NCBI GenBank assembly: GCA_001899445.1
Contig: MPOA01000006.1
Span: forward strand, 434,001 to 498,000
Direction of reading: 5' to 3'
Source: Candidatus Desulfopertinax cowenii
GTDB lineage: Bacteria > Bacillota > Desulfotomaculia > Desulfotomaculales > Desulforudaceae
Length of the DNA stretch: 64,000 nucleotides
Position numbers and translations under genes: made by a program. Below the pieces are notes generated by a model that was not told where the DNA came from, searched no databases, and saw only the letters and a list, made by a program, of their open reading frames with translations. Shown here piece by piece: positions 27,959-37,691 of the stretch (its first letter is position 1; each line of letters opens with the position of its first letter).

Positions 27959-28816
27959 CTACTTTACCGGAACGTAATCGGCGGCTACGATTTCCTGGCC
28001 TTCTGGGCTCAAGACAAAGTCGATGTATTCCTTTACCAAGCCAGCCGGCTCATCCTTGGTCACGTAGAGAAACGGACGAGAAATCTTGTACTCGCCGCTT
28101 ACAATATTAGCCGCGGTCGGCTCCACGCCGTCAACTGCCACCACTTTGACGGTTTCGTCCAGGTGCCCCACGGAAACATAACCGATCCCGCTCGGGTTGC
28201 GGGCCACGGCCGCCCTCACGCCGCCGGTAGACGGCTGGACGATCGCCCGTTTCGAAATCTTGGCCTCCTTGCCCATCACGATTTTCGCGAAGGCGCCACG
28301 GGTACCGGAGCCTTCTTCGCGGGTGATCACGGCGATCGCTTGGTCGCTGCCGCCGACCTCCTTCCAGTTGGTGATTTCACCGGCGTAGATCTTGCGCACC
28401 TGTTCCAGAGTCAGGTCGGTAATTTCGTTCTGCGGGTGCACCACGATCGCGATGCCGTCACTGGCGATCTGGATTCTTTTCACCTGCGCCGCCTCCTCAT
28501 CCTTGAGTTCGCGGGAAGAAGCGCCGATGTCGGCGATCCCGTCAATGGCCGCCTTGATCCCTTGGCTGGAACCACCGCCCTGCACGTTGACGGTGACCTT
28601 GGGGTGTTGCGCCATGAACGCCTCGGCTAACAGCTCGGAGAGCGGCTGCACCGAAGTGGAACCGGCGATGGTAATATTACCCTGCAATTCACCGTTTTTC
28701 GCGCCGTCCCCGTCCCCGGCCGGGGGCCCGTCCGTCGCCTGGCCGCCGCAGCCGGTGACCGTCACCAGGGCAAACAGCGTGAGCACTACCAGCATCAATA
28801 CTTTCGACCTAAACAT
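27959..28816 (-). CDS. pstS: Phosphate ABC transporter substrate-binding lipoprotein
   Basis: PstS captures phosphate outside the membrane and feeds PstCA. The protein has 285 aa. Its signal peptide ends in VTGC (lipobox), followed by a Gly/Asp-rich linker. Phosphate-binding segments are ITIAGSTSVQPL, GGGSSQGIKA, IGASSREL and EEGSGTRGAF. It is separated from pstC-pstA by a phosphoesterase gene and has its own upstream Pho-box-like repeat and downstream terminator, so it can be transcribed alone in larger amounts. Confidence 0.95.
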   Translation of the reverse strand: MFRSKVLMLVVLTLFALVTVTGCGGQATDGPPAGDGDGAKNGELQGNITIAGSTSVQPLSELLAEAFMAQHPKVTVNVQGGGSSQGIKAAIDGIADIGASSRELKDEEAAQVKRIQIASDGIAIVVHPQNEITDLTLEQVRKIYAGEITNWKEVGGSDQAIAVITREEGSGTRGAFAKIVMGKEAKISKRAIVQPSTGGVRAAVARNPSGIGYVSVGHLDETVKVVAVDGVEPTAANIVSGEYKISRPFLYVTKDEPAGLVKEYIDFVLSPEGQEIVAADYVPVK

Positions 28817-28877
28817 CTCTTGACAAATACCTCCTTAATTGTAAACTTGCTTCCGCCAATTACCATACCTTCCGGGT

Positions 28878-28916
28878 GTTAAAAAAAGGTTATCGTTAGA
28901 TTAAAGCTCCATTAAA
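28878..28916 (-). promoter_or_regulatory. Pho-box-like operator of pstS
   Basis: Read on the plus strand, four hexamers start exactly 11 bases apart: GTTAAA (28878), GTTATC (28889), ATTAAA (28900) and ATTAAA (28911). This is the helical spacing bound by PhoP/PhoB-type response regulators. It is 62 bases upstream of the pstS start. A matching array stands upstream of pstC. Confidence 0.7.
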
Positions 28917-28961: not shown

Positions 28962-29687
28962 TTAACTTATATGACTTCCCGTCCGTAGCACTTCGGCCAG
29001 CACCGCGGGCAACCCCGACCGGACCAGTTCCACGGCGGCGGCCTCCACGTCGTAGTTTACCCGGACGATCTCCACCCGCAACTGGTCGCCGGTAAACTCC
29101 ACCTGCACGTAGGCGGCCCGCGGGTCCCCATCCCGGGGCTGGCCAACGCTCCCGGCGTTGATCAAGTGCCGGCCCTCAATCTGCCGGTGGTAGGGCCGGT
29201 GGGTATGTCCCACGATCAGCACACCGGCCTCCGCTTGCTGCAAAACTTCCCGCAGCTGCTCCGCGGGCATAGCCTCGTAAAGATATTCGTCCAGCCGCCG
29301 CGGGCTGCCGTGGGTCAGGAGGATCTCAAAGCCCCCGGCCCGCAGCCGGAGCGTGGGCGGCAGTTGCTGCAGAAATGCCTGGTTGTCCAGGTCCAGGTGG
29401 GCACTGGTCCAGGCTAGGGAGGCGGTACCCACCGCCATACTCCGTTCGTCGGGGTAGTCGCATCCGCAAACCAGCCGGGCGTTGGCCACCGCGTCGTCGT
29501 AATTCCCCTGCACGCACCGGATTCCCAGTGCCCGGATCTGCTTCGTCACTTCGTTCGGATGCGGTCCGTACCCGACTAGGTCCCCGGCACAGACGATCTC
29601 GTCAGCGCCCCGTTTCTGGATGTCCGCCAGTACGGACTCCAGGGCGTAAAGGTTGGCGTGGAGGTCGGAAATCACCGCGATTTTCAT
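28962..29687 (-). CDS. Calcineurin-like metallophosphoesterase (YfcE/MJ0936 type)
   Basis: This dinuclear-metal phosphodiesterase or phosphatase has 241 aa. All ligand motifs are visible: DLHAN, GDLVGYG, GNYDD, THGSP and GHTHRP. The substrate is unknown. It lies 12 bases after pstA and before pstS, within the Pst locus, where pstB is usually found. A role in phosphate scavenging under Pho control is likely but inferred. Confidence 0.9.
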   Translation of the reverse strand: MKIAVISDLHANLYALESVLADIQKRGADEIVCAGDLVGYGPHPNEVTKQIRALGIRCVQGNYDDAVANARLVCGCDYPDERSMAVGTASLAWTSAHLDLDNQAFLQQLPPTLRLRAGGFEILLTHGSPRRLDEYLYEAMPAEQLREVLQQAEAGVLIVGHTHRPYHRQIEGRHLINAGSVGQPRDGDPRAAYVQVEFTGDQLRVEIVRVNYDVEAAAVELVRSGLPAVLAEVLRTGSHIS

Positions 29688-29699
29688 TCTTCACCTACT

Positions 29700-30557
29700 C
29701 TAACTTTTGCCCTGTCGCTTGGCGATCATCACGTTCATCAGGTACATAGCCGCGGTATTCACCAGCAGGATCAGAATGATCAACACACAGGCGGTGGCGT
29801 ACGCTTTTTCCATGGATATCCCCTCGGCCACCAGGATGTACAGGTGCAGGGGCAGGCTGCGCACCGGATCCATAATCGAGGTGGGCAACGCCAGCGAACT
29901 GCCGGCGGTGAACATAATCGCGGCCGTTTCCCCCGCCGCCTTGCCCAGGGCCAGAATGATCCCGGTAAAAATGCCGGGTGCGGCCGCGGGTAAAACAACC
30001 CTGGCCACGGTTTGCCACCTGGTGGCTCCCAGAGATAGACTGGCCTCCCGGTACTGCCGGGGCACACTTTTGATGGCCTCTTCGGTGGCCTTGATGGTGT
30101 ACGGCAGGATCATAAAGGCCAAAGTCAGGCCACCGGAGAGAATGGACCACCGGAAGCCGCAGAAAATGACGAGAAAGGCGAACCCGAACAGACCGAAGAT
30201 GATCGAGGGAACGCCGGCCAACGTGTCTACCCCAAACCGGATGATCCGGACGAAAGGGCCGGAACGGGTATATTCAGTTAGGTAAGTCGCCGCCAGGATG
30301 CCGGCCGGGGCAGCCACCGCCAGCGCCAGCCCCACCAAGCACGCGGTACCTACGATGGCCGGAAAGATCCCGCCGGCGCGCCCCATGTCTTTGGGATAAG
30401 ATAGCAAAAACTCCAGATTCACGTGTCCAATGCCATAATAGAGGATGTGCGCGAAGATGCCAAAGAGGCTGCCAAACACCACCAACACCGAAAAGTAAAT
30501 AAAAACCCTGGCCACCGTTTCCTCGATCCGCAAACCCAGGCGCGCACTCGTACGCAT
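29700..30557 (-). CDS. pstA: Phosphate ABC transporter permease PstA
   Basis: This is an inner-membrane permease subunit (285 aa) with about six helices. It carries the permease EAA loop (EASLSLGATRWQTVARVVLPAAAPGI) and the family segment TLAGVPSIIFGLFGFA. The ATG follows the pstC stop directly, with no gap. The ABC ATPase pstB and regulator phoU are not in this cluster. Confidence 0.94.
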   Translation of the reverse strand: MRTSARLGLRIEETVARVFIYFSVLVVFGSLFGIFAHILYYGIGHVNLEFLLSYPKDMGRAGGIFPAIVGTACLVGLALAVAAPAGILAATYLTEYTRSGPFVRIIRFGVDTLAGVPSIIFGLFGFAFLVIFCGFRWSILSGGLTLAFMILPYTIKATEEAIKSVPRQYREASLSLGATRWQTVARVVLPAAAPGIFTGIILALGKAAGETAAIMFTAGSSLALPTSIMDPVRSLPLHLYILVAEGISMEKAYATACVLIILILLVNTAAMYLMNVMIAKRQGKS

Positions 30558-31412
30558 TTAAGTCTCCATCCTTTTCGGCAACATGTACAGCAGCGCGTTC
30601 AGAAACATGATTACCAGGAACAGAATGATCCCCGTGGCAAACAGCGCCCGGGTGTGATCACCATAAGCGTAGCCCATCTCCAGCGCGATGTTGGCGGTGA
30701 GCGTACGGAGCGGGTCTAGAATGGAAGTCGGAATGGCCGCCACGTTGCCGGCCACCATCAGGATGGCCATGGTCTCTCCAATCGCCCGCCCCAAACTCAG
30801 GACCACCGCGGCCAGAATACCCGAGCGAGCCGCCGGCAGCAGCACCTTCTTGATGGTCTGCCAGTGGGTCGCCCCGAGCGCCAACGAACCTTCCTTGTAG
30901 GCGCGAGGCACCGCCCGGATGGCATCTTCCGAAATGCCGATGAGCGTGGGCAGGATCATCAGGGCCAGGACCAGTGCCCCGGCCAGTAGACTGAAGCCCC
31001 AGCCGCCGAAATGATTCATGATGAAAGGTACCATCACGACCACGCCAAAGAATCCGTAAACCACCGAAGGAATACCTTCCAGAAGCAATACCGCCGATCG
31101 GACCAGGTTGGCGAACCAGACCGGGGCGTACTCGGCCAGGTAGATGGCGCAGGCCAGGCCTACGGGTACGCCCAAAAGCAATGCCCCCATCGTTACGTAC
31201 AGGGAACCGACGATCATGGGGAAAATACCGAACTCCCCGTCTAGCGGCGCCCACGTTCCCCCAAACAAAAAAGAGAGCCCGTGGCCGGTGATGATTGGCA
31301 GACCCTCGACCGCCACAAAAGCCCCGATCAGAAACACAATCAGGATTGCGGTGGTCGTACTGAAGAACAGGCTCTTCTCGATTACCTTTTCACACCATCG
31401 CCGGTTAACCAA
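30558..31412 (-). CDS. pstC: Phosphate ABC transporter permease PstC
   Basis: This is the second permease subunit (284 aa) with six helices. Typical segments are LLLEGIPSVVYGFFGVVV and the EAA loop EGSLALGATHWQTIKKVLLPAA. It is first in the pstC-pstA-phosphoesterase unit, 49 bases downstream of a Pho-box-like array. The start codon is a GTG- or TTG-type codon near 31412; no strong ribosome-binding site was seen. Confidence 0.93.
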   Translation of the reverse strand: MVNRRWCEKVIEKSLFFSTTTAILIVFLIGAFVAVEGLPIITGHGLSFLFGGTWAPLDGEFGIFPMIVGSLYVTMGALLLGVPVGLACAIYLAEYAPVWFANLVRSAVLLLEGIPSVVYGFFGVVVMVPFIMNHFGGWGFSLLAGALVLALMILPTLIGISEDAIRAVPRAYKEGSLALGATHWQTIKKVLLPAARSGILAAVVLSLGRAIGETMAILMVAGNVAAIPTSILDPLRTLTANIALEMGYAYGDHTRALFATGIILFLVIMFLNALLYMLPKRMET

Positions 31413-31460
31413 TGTATTCGCCCCCAGGCTTGGTTCCCAGGACGATTCTATTAGCGCAAC

Positions 31461-31499
31461 GTTAAGGGATAGTTAAGAATGATTTAAATCATGGTTAAG
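31461..31499 (-). promoter_or_regulatory. Pho-box-like operator of pstC
   Basis: Read on the plus strand, four hexamers begin exactly 11 bases apart: GTTAAG (31461), GTTAAG (31472), TTTAAA (31483) and GTTAAG (31494). The same period and sequence occur upstream of pstS. This is good internal evidence for a PhoP-type regulator controlling both units. Confidence 0.75.
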
Positions 31500-31509
31500 A
31501 AACACCAAA

Positions 31510-31527
31510 GAGGCTGTCTCAAGCCTC
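31510..31527 (-). terminator. Possible weak terminator hairpin
   Basis: GAGGCT/AGCCTC with a six-base loop is followed on the minus strand by TTTGGTGTTTCTT. It would insulate the pst unit from the upstream tRNA transcript. Confidence 0.4.
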
Positions 31528-31637
31528 CTCAAATGGGGTACGTCCGCTAGTTGTTCTTGGGGCTGGGTTGCTCCGGGGTGGGCGCCCGTCCGAAAACGTG
31601 GTCTTATCAAGTAAACGCCTATGCCGGGCATACAAAA

Positions 31638-31667
31638 CAAACCCCCGGGACCACCCCGGAGGGTTTA
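31638..31667 (-). terminator. Terminator of the tRNA-Asp-Phe-Gly cluster
   Basis: On the minus strand AAACCCTCCGGG pairs with CCCGGGGGTTT around a short loop. TTTGTTTTG follows. It is 6 bases past the tRNA-Gly end. Confidence 0.8.
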
Positions 31668-31672
31668 TTTCC

Positions 31673-37551: not shown

Positions 37552-37691
37552 TGTCGATTTTCCTTCGCCTTAAGCTGGCGTATTTAATGACGCATTAATA
37601 GATCTAAAAAACGGTTTTAGCGAGCATTAGCCCGTATATAATATTACCTTAACGTCGAATCAATTTAATTATAGTAATTACCAATTTACAA

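Follow-up and report, generated by a model that had tools for sequence, protein, structure and literature searches.

Tandem four-unit Pho-box arrays at the pst promoters of Candidatus Desulfopertinax cowenii and its relatives

The four-unit direct-repeat array that precedes pstC in Candidatus Desulfopertinax cowenii is well supported as a Pho box of known kind. We consider it very probable that this array drives pstC-pstA, probably together with the adjoining yfcE gene, that a twin array drives pstS, and that both are activated by a PhoB/PhoP-type regulator. Protein binding, activation and low phosphate as the signal are what we infer from the DNA sequence. Both arrays lie in the window, the whole 64,000-nucleotide stretch that was analysed (Table 1). 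Among the papers searched, none pairs 'Pho box' with Desulfotomaculum, and no description was found for this lineage. With the arrays, an uncultured or little-studied deep-branching family of Bacillota, whose relatives include Desulforudis MAGs, gains a phosphate regulon that can be tested and whose promoters are laid out precisely.

Table 1. Features of the pst region, in window coordinates.
Feature	Position	Strand	Details
pstC Pho-box array	31461..31499	-	four units at 11 bp, read as two tandem dimer sites
predicted -10 of pstC, TAGAAT	31445..31450	-	10 bp past the last unit; same spacing in 22/22 family sites
terminator-like hairpin	31505..31532	-	directly upstream of the array; stem of 11 pairs
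pstC, phosphate ABC transporter permease	30558..31412	-	TIGR02138 287.9 bits, cut-off 196.45 (NCBIfam)
pstA, phosphate ABC transporter permease	29700..30557	-	TIGR00974 280.9 bits
YfcE-type phosphodiesterase	28962..29687	-	TIGR00040 75.7 bits, cut-off 56.25
pstS, phosphate-binding lipoprotein	27959..28816	-	TIGR02136 266.8 bits
pstS Pho-box array	28878..28916	-	TTTAAT-ggagc-TTTAAT-ctaac-GATAAC-ctttt-TTTAAC; second-best four-unit match in the genome
predicted -10 of pstS, TATGGT	28862..28867	-	10 bp past the array, spacer acccggaagg

Architecture of the pstC and pstS promoters

Read on the pstC strand, the array is CTTAAC-catga-TTTAAA-tcatt-CTTAAC-tatcc-CTTAAC, followed by gttgcgctaa and the predicted -10 element TAGAAT. 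On the forward strand the units appear as GTTAAG at 31461, GTTAAG at 31472, TTTAAA at 31483 and GTTAAG at 31494, with an exact 11-bp period, and 49 bases separate position 31461 from the TTG start of pstC at 31412. The first-pass annotation had reported four hexamers at this period and this distance from pstC and had mentioned a further array at pstS; all its positions are confirmed by the sequence, and the pstS array is present. A Pho box is expected to contain at least two direct-repeat units at an 11-bp period, and four are found here. Dinucleotide shuffles of the pstC intergenic region never equalled the array (0/2000), the best shuffle having 3 mismatches in 16 positions against 0 observed, and the outcome was the same when any period from 6 to 16 was allowed (0/300). 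Shuffles of the pstS intergenic region likewise never equalled the pstS array (0/2000). The predicted -10 elements of pstC and pstS are not preceded by a good -35 hexamer at the usual distance, and promoter prediction lists none. In relatives L005, L014 and L015, a YfcE-type phosphodiesterase gene occupies the same place between pstA and pstS.

The hairpin adjoining the pstC array (GAGGCTT...AGCCTCTTT) is conserved in the family alignment. It follows phoB2 or another gene in relatives, and here it forms a remnant between tRNA genes and the array. That it is retained downstream of different genes, and has a T-rich tail in two relatives (G006 and G007), suggests that it is a terminator, and on the same grounds we rejected it as part of the operator.

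Recurrence of the array in the genome and among relatives

Only the pstC array matched (TTAA-N7)x4 without mismatch in a scan of the entire genome (1.78 Mb). One mismatch added the pstS array and a register shift of the pstC site, and nothing else, while the 6 matches at three mismatches were about as many as the reversed control gave (5 matches in all). When the pattern was extended to the full promoter (four units, 10 bp and a loose -10, TAnnnT), up to two mismatches returned only the pstS (0) and pstC (1) promoters in the whole genome; a third mismatch added one further place besides a register-shifted match at pstC, and the control had 0 matches. Within the window, a matrix trained without this genome ranked pstS first (42.0 bits) and pstC second (36.9 bits), the next separate place scoring 25.5 bits. 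Because three-mismatch places occur at control-level frequency and have low matrix scores, those at C4:8405, C6:65679, C6:352511 and 37584-37663 of the window were not counted as boxes. The stretch at 37584-37664 is AT-rich and lies upstream of a P-type ATPase gene, with a weak array in the opposite orientation; the 25.5-bit place (37626-37664) reads away from that gene and was rejected as its operator.

In the family set (eight genomes from three genera, about 17 Mb; at most one mismatch), the same pattern gave 25 register matches, corresponding to 20 distinct sites, against none for the reversed control. All 20 precede pstC, pstS or a phoB paralogue (phoB2), or fall in the gap between phoR and pstB/pstS, and no strong array was found at cell-wall genes in the eight genomes. 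A Pho box should recur upstream of other phosphate genes, as is the case for pstC and pstS here and for all 20 family sites. The two checks proposed in the first-pass annotation are borne out: the genome scan restricts the motif to the pst promoters rather than to random positions, and relatives have the repeats in front of pstC, pstS or further pho genes.

Adding two sites that have two mismatches gives an alignment of 22. Its most frequent letters in unit 4 spell TTAACA (15, 22, 21, 22, 20 and 16 of 22), in which the conservation of TTAA is partly by construction, since sites were chosen by TTAA, and in which sites from related genomes are non-independent. The -10 element at fixed spacing is unforced because site selection used TTAA alone: TAnnnT stands exactly 10 bp past the last unit in all 22 sites, and the average match to TATAAT has a sharp maximum at this spacing (4.2/6; 2.9 at the next best). 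This fixed 10-bp spacing, absent from the earlier annotation, is the strongest functional clue. Within one genome, all spacer letters differ among the pstC, pstS, phoB2 and pstB promoters.

The array could in principle be a chance AT-rich intergenic repeat, since A+T reaches 0.58 at 31430-31530 compared with 0.39 for the window, but the shuffles never reproduced it and its exact match is unique in the genome. The pstC array is kept across three genera with altered spacer letters, which already refutes a chance origin, and we regard the probability of such an origin as negligible.

Similar arrays precede pstS or pstC in loci of the more distant Desulforamulus, Desulfotomaculum and Desulfocucumis, and an order-level search of 80 genomes found the exact pattern in 40, the control giving three matches in all. 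Where neighbours of exact arrays outside the family were checked, they include pstS, pstC, alkaline phosphatase, Na/Pi cotransporter and DUF47 genes; for several exact matches in AT-rich genomes of the order, a phosphate gene is absent nearby. The common format offers a clean motif for genome-wide prediction. One genome of the same order (G020; L189-L196) has 13 register matches of the exact four-unit array, preceding genes for an ABC permease (PstC-like), alkaline phosphatase and a PstS-like protein as well as genes without a Pfam match, and by its sequence may have an expanded Pho regulon that includes new members. In three genomes of one genus (L181, L182 and L183), the exact array is flanked by a small SASP-like gene and a 75-aa open frame, and no known phosphate gene is present in each 3-kb stretch.

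Comparison with known Pho boxes and proposed mode of action

Regulators of the OmpR/PhoB family bind direct repeats as tandem dimers, and the PhoP boxes of Bacillus have a consensus of TTAACA-like repeats. The first-pass annotation took the hexamer to be a candidate lineage-specific form that differs from Bacillus TTAACA, a claim that fails because it was based on the non-coding strand: GTTAAG is the reverse complement of CTTAAC, and the coding-strand unit, (C/T)TTAAC, is close to TTAACA. On the pstC strand, the units TTAAC(C), TTAAA(T), TTAAC(T) and TTAAC(G) match the Bacillus consensus at 5, 4, 5 and 5 of 6 positions. Of the original Pho-box interpretation, the 11-bp direct-repeat array at pst genes stands and the lineage-specific letters do not. 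The likeness to Bacillus subtilis PhoP boxes, as judged by the consensus, extends to the TTAAC core on the coding strand, the 11-bp period and the pst targets, whereas units 1-3 here are variable at the hexamer's sixth letter.

The pstS promoter of E. coli K-12 consists of CTGTCAT, CTGTCAT, CTTACAT and CTGTCAC, then 10 bp, then TATTTT. It shares with the arrays described here the four 11-bp units, the end of the last unit 10 bp before the -10 (CTGTCAC-CTGTTTGTCC-TATTTT) and a pst target, but its repeat letters are CTGTCAT in place of (C/T)TTAAC. The E. coli geometry of PhoB promoters thus holds despite different repeat letters. Pho boxes have been defined as 11-nucleotide direct-repeat units (PMC4415409). 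The PhoP sites of Mycobacterium tuberculosis (PMC4832192) and the Streptomyces PhoP boxes, GTTCACC (PMC4415409), are alike in having 7-bp direct repeats, a 4-bp spacer and tandem dimers, and M. tuberculosis PhoP bound rows of three and four motifs more tightly than pairs (PMC4832192). The unit sequence differs, and M. tuberculosis PhoP is not known to regulate pst in the same way. The Riemerella anatipestifer PhoP motif, TTTAACA, differs little in its letters from the unit of the family, but it is a DAP-seq motif from an unrelated lineage with other targets (PMC9603813).

We propose that, under low phosphate, a PhoR/PnpS-type sensor kinase would phosphorylate a PhoB/PhoP-type response regulator, four molecules of which would line up head to tail along the four 11-bp units, forming two tandem dimers. 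With 10 bp between the last unit and the -10, the bound regulator would occupy the place of the -35 and could recruit RNA polymerase there, as in E. coli PhoB promoters. Tandem-dimer binding and the E. coli pstS geometry are the basis for reading the array as an activator site that replaces the -35; a Pho box is expected about 10 bp upstream of the -10 in this place, which is where the array lies at 22/22 sites and, identically, at E. coli pstS. A bound protein in the -35 region can also block, so that the array, which overlaps this region, might be a repression site at which the regulator, for example, excludes polymerase. This is very unlikely, as the -10 elements have no good -35 hexamer at the usual distance and the pstS promoter of E. 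coli, which PhoB activates, has the same geometry.

Such an activator would need a cognate PhoB/PhoP-PhoR pair, and the genome encodes one in a phoB-phoR-pstB-phoU cluster on contig C1, apart from the window's contig. PstB and PhoU score above NCBIfam cut-offs, and the kinase exceeds the cut-off of the PnpS model (418 vs 400), PnpRS being the pneumococcal Pho regulator (PMC11034029). The response regulator falls below both the PhoB cut-off (252.7 of 296.2) and the YycF cut-off (256.4 of 340). A profile search found only two regulators with a Trans_reg_C domain in the genome. The best reading is that the C1 PhoB-PhoR pair reads the pst arrays, a role assigned on the grounds that pstB-phoU are its neighbours and that the boxes are confined to phosphate genes.

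Another OmpR-family regulator with an 11-bp box, of the WalR/YycF type or the second PhoB-like regulator of the genome (C6:413997), might instead read the array in response to another stress, and the near-equal scores of the C1 regulator with the YycF and PhoB models are compatible with this. We consider this improbable, since the strong arrays of the eight genomes are all at phosphate genes, with none at cell-wall genes, the phoB-phoR cluster also contains pstB-phoU, and C6:413997 follows a gene for an LTXXQ-like protein, with no box nearby.

History of the pho operon

The operon phoB-phoR-[box]-pstS-pstC-pstA-pstB-phoU is whole in three relatives (G002, G006 and G007). Here, the phoR-pstB gap on C1 (L095:9603-9905, about 300 bp) contains a pstA fragment of 94 bases with 82% identity to that of G002 (E 2e-21). 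Units 1 and 2 of the ancestral box also remain (TTTAAC-cctga-ATTAAC), with pstA sequence directly after them. From these two surviving units and the pstA sequence that follows, a deletion seems to have removed box units 3 and 4, the -10, pstS, pstC and the start of pstA, with its junction inside the box. The pstB-phoU genes on C1 are without a complete array. The pstCA-yfcE-pstS cluster of the window is the only Pst permease found in the genome, and each of its two parts has its own box.

Upstream of pstC, G001 and G006 carry a tRNA Asp-Phe-Gly group, then [box]-phoB2, then pstC, whereas here the tRNA group adjoins the pstC box. No phoB2 was found at 31505-31672 of the window or among the Trans_reg_C regulators of the genome, and what is kept there is the hairpin with some of the intergenic sequence. 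The regulator C6:413997 was rejected as the missing phoB2, its 49% identity to phoB2 of G001 being below the 56% of PhoB.

It is possible, and we put it forward tentatively, that the Pho regulon of this lineage is very small and rigid in promoter format (four 11-bp units, 10 bp and a -10), and that it has shrunk here to two promoters, a single deletion having taken pstS and pstC of the operon along with half of the pstB-phoU box. Through the loss of that half box, PstB/PhoU would no longer be co-controlled with PstCA/PstS. The phoR-pstB deletions show a Pho operon being dismantled while the box stays at the replacement cluster. What is new here is the pstA fragment with half of an ancestral box in the phoR-pstB gap, and the absence of the second phoB that precedes pstC in relatives. 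G001, G003 and G005 are also without a whole pstSCA at the phoR-pstB place; in G001 and G003, which have their own deletions of pst genes, the box and fragments of these genes are kept.
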